This document shows positions 12,824-19,953 of a DNA stretch of 19,953 nucleotides, piece after piece (the first letter of the stretch is position 1; each line of letters begins with the position of its first letter). Source of the DNA: an uncultured Collinsella sp. (GTDB lineage Bacteria; Actinomycetota; Coriobacteriia; Coriobacteriales; Coriobacteriaceae); assembly GCA_937969105.1 (NCBI GenBank), contig CALBUZ010000114.1:1-19953 (forward strand), in the 5' to 3' direction. Under the pieces are notes generated by a model. The model searched no databases. It was not told where the DNA came from and worked only from the letters and a program-made list of their open reading frames with translations. A program made the position numbers and the translations under genes.

Positions 12824-14773
12824 ATGGAGTCCTCCGCCTACCCGATGCTCTTTAGTCCGATCAAGGTCGGTACGACCGAGGTCAAGAACCGCGTCTTTAT
12901 GCCGCCGGTGTCCACCAACCTGGCCGATCATGGCTATGTGACCGACGACTTGGTCGATCATTACCGTGCCCGCGCCAAGGGCGGCGTGGGCCTCATCATT
13001 ACCGAGGTCGTGACGGTCGAGCCCACCTATACCTATCTGCCGGGTGACATGTGCTGCTACGACGACACGTTTATCCCTGGCTGGGAAAAGCTCGCCGCCG
13101 CCGTGCATGAGTATGGCTGCAAGATCATGCCGCAGCTCTTTCACCCCGCCTACATGGCCTTTAACATTCCGGGCACGCCGCGCCTGATCGCTCCGTCCTT
13201 CGTGGGACCGTCCTATGCCCGTGAGGCACCGCGTCCTATCACGGTCGACGAGATTCACGAGCTCACGCATCAGTTTGGCGACGCTGCCGTGCGTATGCAG
13301 AAGGCCGGTGTCGATGGCGTCGAGGTCCATGCGGCGCACGCCCACGGCATGCTCGGCGGTTTCTTGACCCCGCTCTATAACAAGCGTACCGATGAGTACG
13401 GCGGCTCGCTCGACGCCCGCATGCGCTTTTTGCTCGAGGTCATCGCCGAGATTCGCGAGCGCTGCGGCAAGGACTTTATCATCGACGTCCGCATCTCGGG
13501 CGATGAGTACACCGATGGCGGTCTGACCCTCAACGACATGATCTACGTCTCGCGTCGTCTGGAGAAGGCCGGCGTCGACATGATTCACGTGTCGGGCGGC
13601 ACCACCATCAAGCGCGGCTCTGCGATTCCCGCCGCCGGTACGCAGCAGGCCTCGCATGCCGCCTGCTCGCGCGAGATTAAAAAGCACGTCAACATTCCCG
13701 TCGCCACCGTTGGACGCATCAACGAGGCCTGGATCGCCGAGGAGCTGATCGAGGACGGTGCTGCCGACATCTGCATGATGGGCCGCGCCAATCTGTGCGA
13801 TGCCGAGTTCTGCAACAAGGCCGCTGCCGGCAACGCCGACGATATCCGCCCCTGCATCGGCTGCCTGCGCTGCCTGAACGGCATTATGTTTGGCAAGCGC
13901 ATCTCCTGCACCGTCAATCCCGATGTTGAGCGCGACGAGGCCGGTTACGAGCCTGCCGCCGAGGCCAAGAACGTACTGGTTGTGGGCGCTGGTCCTGCGG
14001 GCATGGAGGCAGCCTACATTGCCGCCAAGCGCGGCCACAACGTAGTGCTCGTGGATAAGCAGGACGAGCCGGGTGGCGAGATGCGCATCGCGGCCGTTCC
14101 GCCGGCAAAGCAGGAACTCACCCGCGTGATCAAGTATCAGTACCGTCGCCTGGCCGAGGTCGGCGTGAAGTGCGTATTTGGCACCGAGCTTACTGCCGAG
14201 GACATTCAGCGTGACTACGCCGGCTACGAGGTCGTCCTGGCCTATGGCGCCGAGCCCATCGCCCCGGCCTTCATGCAGGGATTTAAGCAGGTCATGACGG
14301 CTGACGACCTGTTGGGCGGCAAGGCTTTCCCGGGCAAGAAGATTGTCATCGTGGGCGGCGGCACCGTCGGTTGCGAGACGGCCGACTACCTGGCCCCGTT
14401 GGTCAACGATCTGTCGCCGGCCAATCGCGACGTCACCGTCATCGAGATGACCAAGACGCTCGCCGCCAACGAGGGCGGCGCCGGTCGCGCGGTGCTCATC
14501 ACGCGCATGCTCTCCAAGGGCGTTCACGTGCTGACCGAGGCCAAGGTGACCGAGATTACCGAGGACACTATCAGCTACGAAAAGGACGGCGAGGTCCACA
14601 CCATCGCCGATGCCGATACGCTGGTGCTTGCCATGGGTTATCGTCCCAACACCAAGCTGGCCGACGACCTTGCCGCTGCTGGCGTTGCTGTCCACGTGCT
14701 GGGCGATGCCAACAAGTGCGGCAACATCCGCGACGCCATCGGCGATGGCTACAAGGTTGCCTGCGAGCTCTAG
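12824..14773 (+). CDS. Old-yellow-enzyme type NAD(P)H-dependent enoate reductase (FMN, 4Fe-4S, FAD)
   Basis: A 649-residue cytosolic flavoenzyme of the 2,4-dienoyl-CoA reductase / enoate reductase / BaiCD-BaiH type. Residues 1-340 form the FMN TIM barrel (NKRTDEYGG at 186-194). The cysteines C344, C347, C350 and C362 (CIGCLRC and SCTVNP) bind a 4Fe-4S cluster. The FAD site is VVGAGPAGMEAA (387-398) and the NAD(P)H site IVGGGTVGCETADYL (509-523). The usual HGYLLxQFL active-site stretch reads HAHGMLGGFL (172-181), with Met for the family tyrosine and Gly-Gly after it. The substrate is therefore probably not that of well-studied members. It lacks the HGDR motif of bilirubin reductase BilR. AAAGGAACC at 12811-12819 supports the start. 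It appears to be a single-gene unit with a strong terminator. Class is secure, substrate unknown. Confidence 0.93.
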   Translation: MESSAYPMLFSPIKVGTTEVKNRVFMPPVSTNLADHGYVTDDLVDHYRARAKGGVGLIITEVVTVEPTYTYLPGDMCCYDDTFIPGWEKLAAAVHEYGCKIMPQLFHPAYMAFNIPGTPRLIAPSFVGPSYAREAPRPITVDEIHELTHQFGDAAVRMQKAGVDGVEVHAAHAHGMLGGFLTPLYNKRTDEYGGSLDARMRFLLEVIAEIRERCGKDFIIDVRISGDEYTDGGLTLNDMIYVSRRLEKAGVDMIHVSGGTTIKRGSAIPAAGTQQASHAACSREIKKHVNIPVATVGRINEAWIAEELIEDGAADICMMGRANLCDAEFCNKAAAGNADDIRPCIGCLRCLNGIMFGKRISCTVNPDVERDEAGYEPAAEAKNVLVVGAGPAGMEAAYIAAKRGHNVVLVDKQDEPGGEMRIAAVPPAKQELTRVIKYQYRRLAEVGVKCVFGTELTAEDIQRDYAGYEVVLAYGAEPIAPAFMQGFKQVMTADDLLGGKAFPGKKIVIVGGGTVGCETADYLAPLVNDLSPANRDVTVIEMTKTLAANEGGAGRAVLITRMLSKGVHVLTEAKVTEITEDTISYEKDGEVHTIADADTLVLAMGYRPNTKLADDLAAAGVAVHVLGDANKCGNIRDAIGDGYKVACEL

Positions 14774-15672: not shown

Positions 15673-15797
15673 CCCATCGTCGCATCTGCTCGAAACGCAA
15701 AAACGACGCTGCTCACCCACAGCGTTTTGCAACCGAGTTTTTTAAAAAAATGCCTAAAATGGCTCAGACCGCCGACAAATGGGAAACGGGGTGCGCT

Positions 15798-16820
15798 ATG
15801 GCGCAGATGAGAATCAAGGACATTGCCGCCGAGGCGGGCGTGAGCCCGGCCACGGTCTCGCGCTATCTCAACAACCGCCCCGGGCAAATGACCGAGGAAA
15901 CCCGTGCTCGCATCGCGGCGGTTATCGAGCGCACCGGCTATCGCCCGCGTGCCGCCGCGCGCAATCTGCGCAGCTCACGCACCAACCTCATCGGCGTGAT
16001 CCTGGCCGACATCGCCAACCCGTTCTCGAGCGCCATGCTCGAAGGGCTTTCCGCCAGCGCCGCCGCGCGCGGCTGCTCGCTCATGACGGCCATTAGTGGC
16101 AACGACCCCGCTAAGGAAGCGGAGTCGCTCACCAGGCTTATCGATGCCGGCGTGGACGGCCTGGTCGTCAACACCTGCGGAGGCAATGACGAGGCGATCG
16201 CCGCGGCAGCGGGACGTCTGCCCGTTGTGCTGCTCGACCGCGATGTTGCCGACGGTGGCATCGATCTGGTGACATCGAACAACCGTGAGCTGGTCGCCGG
16301 CTTGGTAGACGAGCTCGCCGCTGCGGGCTGTGAGCGCCTGTGCCTGCTCACCGAGGCAAGCGACGACAGCCCCGTGCGTCGTGAGCGCGCCGAGGCCTTT
16401 GTCGACGAGCTTTCGCGACGCGGCCTTGCCGGCGAGGTCGTCACCTTGGCCGATGGCGGTGCCACGGGCGTTGGTCGCTTGGACGAGACCATGCGTGACT
16501 ATGCCGGCAAAAAGCTCGGCCTCATTGCCGTCAACGGCCTGGTTTTCCTGCGTCTGACCGAGGCGCTAGCGCAGCTGGGACCCTCGCTGCCGGCGGGGCT
16601 CAGGATCGCGACGTTTGACGACTACCCCTGGAACCATGTGCTCTTTGGTGGCGTGACCACGGCCGCGCAGGACACCCTCACCATTGCCGAGCGCGTGGTC
16701 GAGCGCCTGTCCGAGCGCATCGACGTTGTCACCACCACGGTGGGCGAGGCCGCAAAGCTGGCGCCCAAACGCATCGAGGTTCTCGGTCACATCGAACACC
16801 GCGCATCAACCTCGCGCTAA
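15798..16820 (+). CDS. LacI-family transcriptional regulator
   Basis: A 340-residue repressor. The helix-turn-helix is at residues 4-23 (IKDIAAEAGVSPATVSRYLN), followed by the hinge with RNLRSSRTNLIGVIL and a periplasmic-binding-protein-like effector domain (from about residue 60). The effector domain keeps the ADIANPFSS start and the LLDRDV pattern of sugar-type LacI proteins. The start at 15798 is preferred; an upstream in-frame ATG at 15750 would add 16 residues without family similarity, and the ribosome site is weak for both. No sugar transporter or glycosidase gene lies next to it, so its target is not evident. It is followed by its own terminator. Ligand unknown. Confidence 0.93.
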   Translation: MAQMRIKDIAAEAGVSPATVSRYLNNRPGQMTEETRARIAAVIERTGYRPRAAARNLRSSRTNLIGVILADIANPFSSAMLEGLSASAAARGCSLMTAISGNDPAKEAESLTRLIDAGVDGLVVNTCGGNDEAIAAAAGRLPVVLLDRDVADGGIDLVTSNNRELVAGLVDELAAAGCERLCLLTEASDDSPVRRERAEAFVDELSRRGLAGEVVTLADGGATGVGRLDETMRDYAGKKLGLIAVNGLVFLRLTEALAQLGPSLPAGLRIATFDDYPWNHVLFGGVTTAAQDTLTIAERVVERLSERIDVVTTTVGEAAKLAPKRIEVLGHIEHRASTSR

Positions 16821-16873: not shown

Positions 16874-16889
16874 TTAACCCTGCGGAAAC
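16874..16889 (+). promoter_or_regulatory. GlnR-box-like operator ahead of glnA
   Basis: TTAAC-CCTGCG-GAAAC matches the actinobacterial GlnR half-site pattern gTnAc-n6-GaAAc at every fixed base except the first g. It lies at the -35 position relative to the candidate -10 TGCGATAGTAT at 16897-16907, where a class II activator would bind. Downstream, TCTGCGATA is directly repeated (16895-16903 and 16907-16915). The presence of a GlnR-like regulator gene just after glnA supports it. Confidence 0.5.
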
Positions 16890-16954
16890 ATTTTTCTGCG
16901 ATAGTATCTGCGATATAGACCAGTCGAAACCCGCCCGAAAGAAAGGGGAGCGAC

Positions 16955-18292
16955 ATGAACCAGCAGAACATCGATTACGTACTCCGCTCCGTAGAGCAGC
17001 GTGACATCCGCTTTGTGCGTCTGTGGTTTGTCGACATTCTCGGCCGCCTCAAGAACTTTGCCATTAGCCCCGAGGACCTCGAGGTCGCTTTTGAGGAGGG
17101 TATTGGCTTTGACGGTTCCGCCATCGAGGGCTTTGCCACGCCCGAGGAAGCCGACATGCTGGCGTTTCCCGATGCTTCGACCTTCCAGATTTTGCCGTGG
17201 CGCCCGAGCCACAACGGCGTCGCCCGCGTGTTCTGCGACGTGTGTACTCCCGATCGCAAGCCGTTTGCCGGCGACCCGCGCGATGCCCTGCGCCGCATGT
17301 TCCGCAAGGCCGAGAAGGCTGGCTATCTGCTCAACGTGGGTGCCGAGCTGGAGTATTACTACTTCCCCGACGAGCACACCCCCGAGCCGCTCGACAACGT
17401 GGGCTACTTCGATCTTTCGGTGAGCGATGCCGCCCGCGACCTGCGCCGCAACACGGTCCTCACGCTCGAGAAGATGTCCGTGCCCGTGGAGTACACCTTC
17501 CACGCCGCCGGCCGCTCGCAGCACGGCATGAGCCTGCGCCACGCCGAGGCCCTGAGCATGTCCGACGCCATCACCACGGCCAAACTCATCATTAAGCAGC
17601 AGGCCTACGAGAGCGGTTGCCACGCCTCCTTTATGCCCAAGCCGTTGGCGGGCGAGGACGGCAGCGCTATGTTCCTGTGCCAGTCGCTATTCGACCACGA
17701 CGGCTACAACGTCTTTTGGGGCGAGGACGACGAGAAGTACCATCTCTCCGATATCGCCAAGCACTACATGGCCGGCATCCTGGCGCACGCGCGCGAGATC
17801 AGCGCCATCACCAACCCCACGGTCAACTCGTACAAGCGCATCACCACGGGCGGCGACTCCGTGCCGCAGTACGCCACGTGGGGCCTGCGCAACCGCGCGA
17901 GCATGGTTCGCATCCCGGTCTACAAGCCCGGCAAACAGCTGTCCACGCGCATCGAGCTTCGCAGCCCCGACCCCATGGCCAACCCGTACCTGGTTAACGC
18001 CGTCACGCTGGCGGCTGGTCTGGACGGCATCGAGCGCAAGCTGGAGCTCCCGCCCGAGGCCACGGCCGAGACGCTCAAGCTTACCGACCGTCAGATGCTC
18101 GAGGCCGGCTACACGCCGCTGCCGCGCTCGCTCAAAGAGGCGCTCGACGTGTTTGAGGACTCGCAGTTTATGAAGGATGCCCTCGGCGAGCACATCCACA
18201 GCTTCTTCCTCAAAAAGAAGCGCGACGAGTGGCATAAGTTTGAGTCCACGATCACCGAGTGGGAGATCAAGCACTACCTGGCGAACTCCTAA
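16955..18292 (+). CDS. glnA: Type I glutamine synthetase homologue with substituted metal ligands
   Basis: A 445-residue protein that aligns over its whole length with the Bacillus-type (GSI-alpha) glutamine synthetase (444 residues). It keeps GFDGSAIEGFA (51-61), E131 and E133 in GAELEYYYF, MPKPL (227-231), NPTVNSYKR (287-295) and RIELRSPDP (332-340). It lacks several residues known to be catalytic or metal-binding. The HHEVAPGQHE region reads FHAAGRSQHG, giving Ala184 and Gly191 for two Glu ligands. The GMH histidine is Phe240 (AMFLCQSL). The flap PGYEAP reads TGGDSVP, with Asp301. Hence it may be a weak enzyme, have another substrate, or be a sensory pseudoenzyme. The start has AAAGGGGAG. 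The adenylylation segment of the beta type is absent. The gene precedes a GlnR-like regulator by 50 bases, so they may be co-transcribed. Confidence 0.85.
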   Translation: MNQQNIDYVLRSVEQRDIRFVRLWFVDILGRLKNFAISPEDLEVAFEEGIGFDGSAIEGFATPEEADMLAFPDASTFQILPWRPSHNGVARVFCDVCTPDRKPFAGDPRDALRRMFRKAEKAGYLLNVGAELEYYYFPDEHTPEPLDNVGYFDLSVSDAARDLRRNTVLTLEKMSVPVEYTFHAAGRSQHGMSLRHAEALSMSDAITTAKLIIKQQAYESGCHASFMPKPLAGEDGSAMFLCQSLFDHDGYNVFWGEDDEKYHLSDIAKHYMAGILAHAREISAITNPTVNSYKRITTGGDSVPQYATWGLRNRASMVRIPVYKPGKQLSTRIELRSPDPMANPYLVNAVTLAAGLDGIERKLELPPEATAETLKLTDRQMLEAGYTPLPRSLKEALDVFEDSQFMKDALGEHIHSFFLKKKRDEWHKFESTITEWEIKHYLANS

Positions 18293-18342: not shown

Positions 18343-19014
18343 ATGTCCGAAAAGAGTGCCCTGTTCATGGCGCGCACGACGCGCTTCCACGAGTTTGCCC
18401 GCAGCTTGACGACCACCCTGGGTGTCGAGGTGAGCCTGGCTACCCCCGATTCGCCGACTGCGGCGCACGACTTTGACCTGCTGATCCTCGATTCCGACGG
18501 CATCCGCAGCGACCGCATCGATCAGATTGCCAAGTGGCTTGACGATCGCGGCGGCGTCCCCATGTTGGTGATCGTCGACGACGAGGCGCTCGGCACCCTG
18601 CGCCTGCCGAATCACGCGCATGCCGACTTTGTATGCCCCACGGCGACGCCCAACGAGCTTAAGGCTCGTGCACAGCGCCTGATGGGCGAGGAGGAGACCG
18701 TCGCCGCCGACGATGTGCTCAACATCGACAACCTCGAGATCAACCTGGCCACCTACCAGGTGACGCTCGATAACGAGCCCATCGACCTGACGCTGATGGA
18801 GTACTCGCTGCTGAGCTTTTTGGCGACGCATCCCAACCGTGCCTACAGCCGCGAAGTGCTGCTGCACCGCGTGTGGGGCTTTGAGTACTGCGGCGGCACG
18901 CGCACCGTCGACGTGCACATCCGACGCATCCGCTCCAAGGTGGGCCCGCAGATCGCGGCACACATCACCACCGTCCGCGGCGTGGGCTATAAGATCGGAG
19001 GGAGCCGGGCATGA
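18343..19014 (+). CDS. GlnR-like orphan OmpR-family regulator (degenerate receiver)
   Basis: A 223-residue regulator with an N-terminal receiver-like domain and a C-terminal winged helix (from about 118; VDVHIRRIRSKVG recognition region). The receiver keeps the aspartate at residue 50 (FDLLILDSDG) but lacks the acidic pair near the N-terminus (SALFMARTT) and the conserved lysine (FVCPTATPNEL in place of the KP motif). It should not be phosphorylated in the usual way. This is the arrangement known for actinobacterial GlnR, whose D50 supports dimerisation without phosphorylation. GGAGG at 18333-18337 sets the start; the longer in-frame start at 18259 lies inside glnA. The position directly after glnA fits a nitrogen regulator. 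Its last codons (about 19000 onward) may belong to another sequence; see the junction. Confidence 0.82.
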   Translation: MSEKSALFMARTTRFHEFARSLTTTLGVEVSLATPDSPTAAHDFDLLILDSDGIRSDRIDQIAKWLDDRGGVPMLVIVDDEALGTLRLPNHAHADFVCPTATPNELKARAQRLMGEEETVAADDVLNIDNLEINLATYQVTLDNEPIDLTLMEYSLLSFLATHPNRAYSREVLLHRVWGFEYCGGTRTVDVHIRRIRSKVGPQIAAHITTVRGVGYKIGGSRA

Positions 19015-19015
19015 G
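18967..19015 (+). other. Codon-usage junction at the conserved regulator C-terminus
   Basis: Upstream of here arginine is almost always CGC or CGT: in the regulator only one of about 18 is CGG, and that one is at 19006-19008. Downstream 16 of 26 arginine codons are CGG. The switch falls within or just after the codons for VRGVGYK (18973-18993), a sequence shared by most OmpR-family regulators. This is consistent with a join, in nature or in assembly, between two two-component loci. Confidence 0.5.
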
Positions 19016-19953
19016 ACGCGCCATCTTCAAAAGCATTTTCTACACCGCCATGGCGGTGTTTCTTCTGAGCCTGCTGTGCGTCAGTCTGGTGCTTTTCCCC
19101 TATTCCGCCCGACAGCAGAAGCGCAGTCTGGAGGATACCGGCCAGGTCCTGGCGGCCATGGCCAACCACAGCCCGGAGCTTCTGGCCCAGACGCTTCCCT
19201 ATTACGGCGGGAGCCGGCTCCGGGTCACCCTGCTTTCCCACACGGGCGAGGTCCTGCTGGACACGCAGGCAGATCCCGCCGCCATGGAAAACCACGCCCA
19301 GCGGGAGGAATTCCGTCAGGCGCTGGCGCAGGGCCAGGGCGAGAGCACCCGCTATTCCAGCACGCTCTCGGAAAAAACCGTCAACTACGCCGTCCTGCTG
19401 GAAAACGGCAGCGTTTTGCGGGTCTCGGGAGATTTTTCCGCCCAGACGGCCCTTGCCATCAGCCTGTTCACCCCCTGCCTGCTGGTGCTGGCGCTGGCGC
19501 TGGTGCTTTCCTTCCTGCTGGCGGCCCGGGTCTCCCGCAAGATCACCCAGCCGCTGGGCAAGATCGACCTGCGCAACCCGGACGACCGGGAGGTCTATGA
19601 CGAGCTGCGGCCGCTGGTCCAGCGGATCAGCGCGCAGAACCGGGAGATCCAGCACAAGGTGGAGGAGCTGAAGGCAGAGCACGCCCGGCAGGACGATATG
19701 CGCCGGGAATTCACCGCCAATGTCTCCCACGAGCTGAAAACGCCCCTGACCTCCATCTCCGGCTATGCGGAGCTGATGCAGAACGGCATGGTCCGTCAGG
19801 AAGACATTTCCCGGTTTTCCGGCGTGATCTACCACGAGGCCCAGCGGATGATCGTTCTGGTGAACGATATCATCCGGCTCTCCCGGCTGGACGACAAGGA
19901 CATCCGGGAGGAGACCCTGCCGGTGGATCTGTTCCAGGTCTGCGAGGAGACCC
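19011..19953 (+). CDS. Sensor histidine kinase, 5' part (runs off the window)
   Basis: The first 314 codons of a membrane sensor kinase of the PhoR/WalK type. A membrane helix at about 8-30 is followed by an extracytoplasmic sensor of about 110 residues, a second helix (about 147-171), a linker and coiled coil (about 200-228), and the HisKA domain with H240 in NVSHELKTPLTS. The window ends before the ATPase domain. It starts by an ATGA overlap with the regulator, the usual tight coupling of a cognate pair. The regulator, however, has a degenerate receiver and would not be expected to need a kinase. Codon use (CGG arginine) and style resemble Oscillospiraceae more than the rest of the window. 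Either a chimeric join or a transferred gene is likely. Confidence 0.88.
   Translation, partial: MRRAIFKSIFYTAMAVFLLSLLCVSLVLFPYSARQQKRSLEDTGQVLAAMANHSPELLAQTLPYYGGSRLRVTLLSHTGEVLLDTQADPAAMENHAQREEFRQALAQGQGESTRYSSTLSEKTVNYAVLLENGSVLRVSGDFSAQTALAISLFTPCLLVLALALVLSFLLAARVSRKITQPLGKIDLRNPDDREVYDELRPLVQRISAQNREIQHKVEELKAEHARQDDMRREFTANVSHELKTPLTSISGYAELMQNGMVRQEDISRFSGVIYHEAQRMIVLVNDIIRLSRLDDKDIREETLPVDLFQVCEET

Follow-up and report, generated by a model that had tools for sequence, protein, structure and literature searches.

The gene at 16955..18292 (plus strand) of the window, by which we mean the whole 19,953-nucleotide stretch of Collinsella DNA analysed here, encodes a GSI-alpha-type glutamine synthetase (GS) homologue of 445 aa that lacks three of the six metal ligands and the flap glutamate. 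Profile, alignment and structure-model evidence point to a GS pseudoenzyme. It has probably been retained as a nitrogen-status partner for an orphan GlnR-like response regulator, whose gene starts 50 nt after the GS stop. A narrower proposal is put forward tentatively: an OmpR-type GlnR regulator would sense glutamine through a GS pseudoenzyme that is dedicated to this task and whose metal site has been dismantled.

The reading frame has an ATG start and no internal stops, and its product matches both GS domains of Pfam (PF00120, 335.6 bits; PF03951, 96.4 bits). It does not reach the NCBIfam cut-offs for type I glutamate-ammonia ligase (TIGR00653, 397.2 versus 429.15 bits) or for the gamma-glutamyl ligases (GGputSyn, of the PuuA type, 275.4 versus 650 bits; type III ligase, 304.5 versus 469.6 bits). 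An AlphaFold2 model built on a 31-row alignment (mean pLDDT 88.5, pTM 0.91) predicts that the GS fold is intact over the full length, and the top Foldseek matches of this model were archaeal and Gram-positive GSI structures (TM about 0.92). The initial annotation of a clean, full-length GS-like frame is borne out by these results. The best named match is L031 (NZ_SPFO01000002.1), of Collinsella aerofaciens type, with 99.8% identity, and the closest genome among those compared is G001.

In a phmmer alignment to the Paenibacillus GS (7tdp, u132301), A184 and G191 stand at two of the n1 glutamates, F240 at the n2 histidine and D301 at the flap glutamate, which places all four substitutions where they had previously been located by eye. 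The stretch HHEVAPGQHE of the Paenibacillus enzyme corresponds to FHAAGRSQHG, and NGSGMH to DGSAMF. The same annotation had allowed that shifted residues might replace the lost ligands; none are visible in this alignment. The window protein retains E131, E133 and E334, as first reported, together with R295, R314, R319, R332, R336 and D53. With two of the three n1 ligands and the n2 histidine gone, phosphate transfer is not expected. E131, E133 and E334 could still bind a metal, which counts against a pseudoenzyme acting as a sensor.

We surveyed the ligands in 96 relatives besides the window protein: 20 from family f1, 26 from f5, 34 from f2, 14 from other lineages and two from uncultured Coriobacteriales. 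That f1 is Coriobacteriaceae follows from its Collinsella and Enorma records; Atopobiaceae for f5 and Eggerthellaceae for f2, both sampled at about one genome per genus, are guesses. L031, which is nearly identical to the window, was excluded from most f1 counts, L066 from alignment A1 because of an in-frame stop in the range and L255 from the family scan because of a coordinate error. Among the 48 proteins of f1, f5 and the two uncultured rows (the degenerate clade), Glu184, Glu191 and His240 were each found in none, compared with 48/48, 47/48 and 48/48, respectively, in the comparison set of f2 and the other lineages. Ligand loss is a character of the clade and not a quirk of a single genome. 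Among the 20 f1 relatives, position 184 is Ser in 17 and Ala in three, and position 301, in a loop with a one-residue insertion, is Gly in 14, Asp in three, Ser in two and Ala in one. In f5 and the uncultured rows, 22 of 28 proteins carry Glu in the column next to 301. Being variable and set in an inserted loop, Asp301 is not to be read as a functional aspartate replacing the flap glutamate; it is a detail of C. aerofaciens. As a separate observation, the ligand-keeping GSI proteins of f2 are already off canonical, with the Asn264 equivalent mostly Pro and the Ser53 equivalent Cys in 32/34, and the flap is variable in several of them (L187-L220).

According to the available text of PMC9249791, Arg296 of the Paenibacillus GS holds the carboxylate of a substrate analogue and Glu132 its amine, and the phosphate is held by several arginines and His243. 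Mapped by motif, the equivalents are R295 for Arg296, E133 for Glu132, F240 for His243 (lost) and positions 314/332/336 for the phosphate arginines. Throughout the degenerate clade, R295, R314, R319, R332, R336 and D53 are present in 48/48 proteins, E133 is Glu in 46 and Asp in two, and E334 occurs in 48/48 (44/48 in the comparison set). In our reading, amino-acid holding would be retained and phosphoryl transfer lost.

The initial annotation had offered two functions, a glutamine/nitrogen sensor or a gamma-glutamyl ligase for another amine. Phosphoryl transfer in the GS family depends on the metal site, and the ligase is disfavoured because this site is lost. More generally, it is improbable that the protein is still an enzyme, whether such a ligase or a GS working on fewer metals (E131/E133/E334) and the arginine cluster. 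The retention of these three glutamates and of the catalytic arginine in the window would agree with activity, as would the existence of GS-like ligases in Streptomyces, reported in the accessible parts of PMC5403932 (GlnA3) and PMC6529630 (GlnA4). Against it stand the missing ligands and flap glutamate and the lack of conservation in what remains of the site: among the 48 proteins of the degenerate clade, residue 131 is Lys in 21, Glu in 20, Arg in three, Asp in three and Gly in one, whereas Glu is found in 45/48 of the comparison set. Six distant GS-like loci (31-35% identity) also speak against it; L101, L104, L109 and L110 retain all six ligands, and L105 and L106 have a Val in column 184 that perhaps reflects a shift in the alignment. 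In f5, Lys or Arg mostly occupies the n2 ligand position 131, where a fixed cation may stand in for the metal.

A tree of 97 proteins (quick IQ-TREE, SH-aLRT supports only) places f1, f5 and the uncultured rows in one clade (SH-aLRT 100, stem 0.52), so ligand loss had one origin. The ligand-keeping set has 95 columns with an invariance of at least 97%; at seven of them (E184, E191, D193, K214, H240, D256 and the C-terminal column 445) the degenerate clade has another majority residue, and three of the seven (184, 191 and 240) are metal ligands. At the same threshold, both sets together have 69 invariant columns. This pattern is not that of random decay; the loss centres on the metal site. The median dN/dS (Nei-Gojobori, with pairs of dS outside 0.05-2 dropped) was 0.219 in f1 (170/190 pairs), 0.223 in ligand-keeping f2 (372/561 pairs) and 0.349 in f5 (276/325 pairs). 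We consider it very improbable that the gene is relaxed or decaying in organisms that rely on the type III enzyme, GSIII. The presence of GSIII and the higher f5 median would fit such decay, but f1 and the ligand-keeping relatives have equal dN/dS, the columns shared by both sets have stayed invariant, the gene is stop-free among the matches listed and it has been kept for the depth of two families. On this evidence, selection preserves the pseudo-GS gene.

Glutamine synthesis need not depend on the GSI-like protein, since GSIII is present: its N-domain was found in 268 of 272 genomes that represent the order with a completeness of 90% or more, among them 58/58 of f1, which answers the earlier call to look for a second GS in this group of genomes. 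The GSI-like gene itself was matched in 262/272 (f1 58/58), a count that includes G225, G043 and G048, where the best match is only 38-41% identical and probably belongs to another GSI lineage. In 18 f1 genomes, PII, which commonly serves as a nitrogen sensor, was absent from nine, amtB was absent from 10 and gltB was found in 13. These data bear on a further explanation, in which the pseudoenzyme has another target, such as GSIII, PII or an amino-acid transporter, and the operon reflects co-expression only. We regard this as unlikely, if less so than continued catalysis. GSIII is at hand in every f1 genome, and in f5 (L162-L186) a query from L175 detected an amino-acid ABC transporter downstream of the pseudo-GS in 22/26 loci; set against this are the absence of PII from half of the 18 genomes, zero matches of the transporter query in the f1 loci searched and the fact that linkage and co-loss are with the regulator. 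In the two f5 loci scanned for domains, the transporter consists of a binding protein fused to a permease and a GlnQ-like ATPase, the latter scoring best with GlnQ (314 bits, cut-off 379).

The Collinsella part of the regulator gene occupies 18343..18990 (plus strand), and its product has a winged-helix DNA-binding domain at the C-terminus (Trans_reg_C). The N-domain matches Pfam GlnR_1st only weakly, with 22.7 bits for L031 (cut-off 27) and 18.5 bits for one f2 regulator; the L060 regulator gave no match. The best PDB sequence matches are 8hig (named OmpR family regulator) and 8hih (named transcriptional regulatory protein), both of which we take to be GlnR. In 15 aligned rows inspected by eye, the receiver lacks the acidic pair and the Thr/Ser and Lys of the phosphorylation site; the beta-3 Asp is retained in f1 and replaced in several f2. 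In G001 (L158), the regulator gene is followed by one for an HtrA-like protease, and no neighbouring kinase gene was recognised.

The regulator is encoded immediately downstream of GS in 20/20 f1 and 34/34 f2 loci and adjoins it in f7 (3/3), f10 (2/2), f4 (2/2) and f9 (1/2). It also adjoins GS, with a gap of 0, in L060, an actinomycete MAG whose GS keeps all ligands, and the linkage is therefore probably older than ligand loss. Several loci count against a universal pairing: the two genes are 867 nt apart in L123, and no regulator match was found in the available flank of L111, L113, L121, L057, L058 and L064. In f5, adjacency holds in only 2/26 loci, which counts against a GS-regulator pair; one regulator copy is present in 26/26 of these genomes (E <= 1e-30), on the GS contig in 23, and in all 23 it follows GS on the same strand at a distance of about 0.2-7.3 kb.

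Loss of the two genes coincides. Ten of the 272 genomes lack the GS-like gene, and nine of these also lack a full-length regulator ortholog, their best E-values ranging from 1.5e-18 to 1.2e-21 (paralogue level in G242), with no match at all in G262. The exception, G268, has the regulator ortholog (1.6e-69); as this assembly has 1030 contigs and 8% contamination, the GS gene may just have escaped assembly. Six GS-positive genomes queried alongside all have the ortholog (E 1.7e-50 or better); two of them, G206 and G063, share their genera with the negatives G207 and G066. The f2 co-loss could be one deletion of the adjacent pair.

Linkage and co-loss single out this downstream gene as the neighbouring regulator with which the GS had been suggested to communicate. 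The LacI-type gene on the upstream side (15750..16820) was rejected as the partner: among 31 named loci (L031-L059, L063 and L108; f1-type and uncultured Coriobacteriales), LacI matches were limited to the C. aerofaciens group, L043 and L049, and in that group the gene is sometimes about 1 kb away from GS. Elsewhere in the window, 12824..14773 encodes an FMN/FAD enoate-reductase-type protein that scores with the mycofactocin OYE, BaiCD and bilirubin reductase models, each time under the cut-off, and a gene for a GntR-type regulator follows it.

The regulator frame of the window has a foreign end at 18991..19014 (plus strand; tail GVGYKIGGSRA), where the C-terminus reads GVGYLF[KR]x in all 18 full-length f1 regulators and in L031. 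Similarity of the window DNA to 49/49 f1 loci ends by base 18990, in the last codons of the regulator, and we therefore place a probable assembly junction there. From 19011, an open histidine kinase frame runs off the window end (18991..19953); to us it looks clostridial, and tblastn gave 0 matches in the 49 f1 loci. Given this result and the end of similarity by 18990, the kinase was rejected as the cognate kinase of the regulator. The window end is probably an assembly chimera, formed at a motif common to OmpR-type regulators. GC content is alike on the two sides of the junction (0.631 and 0.636) and lends the chimera no support; the alternative is a genuine local insertion in this strain after 18990. 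From the stop in similarity and the kinase without an f1 match, the regulator here probably ends as it does in its relatives.

A predicted GlnR-box-like site, TTAACCCTGCGGAAAC (16874..16889, plus strand), lies 81 nt upstream of the GS start and is the sole match to [GT][TA]AAC-n6-G[AT]AAC in the window, with both strands scanned. A putative -10 region at 16895..16905 (plus strand) is suggested by its fixed distance after the box in relatives; over 34 sites of the f1/f5 clade, the combined consensus is GAAACA....TgTG.gA.agT. For actinomycete GlnR, the part of PMC10704036 that holds its Table 2 gives the consensus gTnAc-n6-GaAAc. A first scan used three literature-like patterns, and the final pattern was set after viewing the f1 sites, so that f5, f2, gltB and the genome count are its independent tests. 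On the plus strand within 300 nt upstream of GS, predicted boxes occur in 16/20 f1, 16/26 f5 and 11/33 f2 loci (L188, with 26 nt of upstream sequence, was dropped from the f2 count of 34), compared with a mean of 0.02-0.03 loci per set and a maximum of one in 200 rounds of dinucleotide shuffling. The four f1 loci without an exact box have one-mismatch versions upstream, as judged by eye. Both uncultured rows carry a box, as does one of the 14 other-lineage rows (L118); it is absent in L060. The low exactness in f2 and the other lineages counts against the regulator acting at these boxes.

Beyond the GS operon, an exact predicted box was found upstream of gltB in 10/13 cases (either strand; shuffle mean for exact boxes 0.06), and the remaining three have a one-mismatch version. 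Control regions gave 0/19 after the regulator gene and 0/21 inside the GS gene. In the genome G164, a slightly longer pattern gave 14 matches compared with two for the reversed control; one predicted box lies 85 nt upstream of gltB, and several matches fall inside ORFs or at genes with no evident nitrogen link. Two G164 matches about 1.35 kb apart (L253 and L254) lie close to a gene whose product is a branched-chain amino-acid-type binding protein. Upstream of GSIII, predicted boxes were found in 5/19 (shuffle mean 0.09; two of 21 matches, the partial L248 and L249, were left out), and in four of these five GSIII and gltB are divergent, so that one set of sites enters both counts. With 1/8, amtB was rejected as a target. 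With a PWM of the GS sites, 0/8 amtB and 4/19 GSIII upstreams reached the 99% point of mononucleotide shuffles (5.2 bits), and none of either exceeded the shuffle maximum of 8.8.

For the pseudo-GS as nitrogen-status partner of the regulator, the following mechanism may be envisaged. Glutamine would be made by GSIII. The pseudo-GS, presumably as an oligomer, would most likely have glutamine as its ligand (or glutamate, with nucleotide bound or not). One of its ligand states would bind or release the regulator, in which the usual phosphorylation site is absent. The regulator would in turn be the protein that acts at the GTAAC/GAAAC-type boxes of its own operon, gltB and some GSIII genes, and control would run as feedback of the pair on its own operon and gltB. 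Of the two functions first proposed, the sensor thus has strong indirect evidence on its side, in the linkage, co-loss, upstream box, GSIII, purifying selection and pocket.

The closest parallel is the GS-GlnR/GS-TnrA system of Bacilli, which shares with the Collinsella locus the GSI-alpha fold and an operon that joins GS to a nitrogen regulator. In Bacillus, as described in the sections of PMC9249791 at hand, GS and GlnR are encoded in one operon, glutamine-bound GS activates GlnR, and the C-terminal tail of GlnR docks in the GS pore. The use of GS as a glutamine sensor for the regulator has been demonstrated there and would be an analogous role here. The differences, set against the same text (PMC9249791), are considerable: the Bacilli GS is an active enzyme, whereas the Collinsella protein lacks most of the metal site, and the Bacilli GlnR is of MerR type with a C-terminal tail that enters the GS active site, whereas the Collinsella regulator is of OmpR type and tail-less, which counts against Bacillus-like docking. 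For the Bacillus regulator to bind, glutamine is held in place by the flap Glu and Arg62 (PMC9249791, same sections); both residues, as mapped by eye, are missing in f1, which counts against Bacillus-like fixing of glutamine.

The regulator itself resembles the actinomycete GlnR, an OmpR-type orphan, in its atypical receiver and in the similar box described in the consulted part of PMC10704036; it differs in its N-domain, which stays under the GlnR_1st cut-off. Predicted GlnR-type boxes upstream of nitrogen genes, a trait of OmpR-type GlnR, are found here at the GS operon and gltB. We know of no model actinomycete with a GS gene beside glnR. GS folds without GS catalysis occur elsewhere, in lengsin and other GS-like proteins that have no GS activity; lengsin, unlike the Collinsella pseudo-GS, is a eukaryotic structural protein without a regulator. 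The nitrogen signals and kinases of OmpR-type GlnR were given as unknown in a 2023 review, in the part available (PMC10704036).

A third system is found in Clostridia. ANTAR leaders adjoining GS and associated regulators are mentioned in the accessible portion of PMC3369936. We took 39 of the 47 loci L064-L110 for parsing, of which eight gave no GS ORF. Among the clostridial GSI-like genes (at loci among L065-L103), a receiver-type regulator of one family is directly next in 22 of the 31 parsed loci, and the three of these 22 that were scanned are all ANTAR. The GSI-like proteins, mostly from clostridial MAGs, are 32-39% identical. They resemble the Collinsella case in gene order, GSI-like gene then receiver-type regulator, and in the unconserved flap Glu; they differ in that the metal ligands are mostly kept and the ANTAR regulator is of RNA-binding type. 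These loci suggest that the GS-regulator theme is a wider one. GSIII-, gltB- and pyrG-like neighbours, recognised by their N-termini, recur in them. Literature searches, which left most subscription papers outside their scope, found nothing on GlnR in Coriobacteri- and no papers on topic for bacterial glutamine synthetase pseudoenzymes or catalytically inactive GlnA paralogs in Actinobacteria; for Collinsella glutamine synthetase, none of the matches listed was on topic by title.

One consequence concerns annotation, since 58/58 f1 genomes searched carry a gene with glutamine synthetase domains although glutamine synthesis is not expected of its product. By operon, co-loss and shared predicted boxes, a GlnR-like regulator is tied to a GS that keeps its pocket and lacks its metal site, and the question of the sensor can be reduced to two small proteins and two promoters. 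If the proposal is true, the OmpR-type GlnR family would gain a sensor, and the coupling of GS to nitrogen regulators would have arisen with three unrelated partner types (MerR, ANTAR and OmpR), going as far in these bacteria as discarding catalysis once GSIII took over synthesis.
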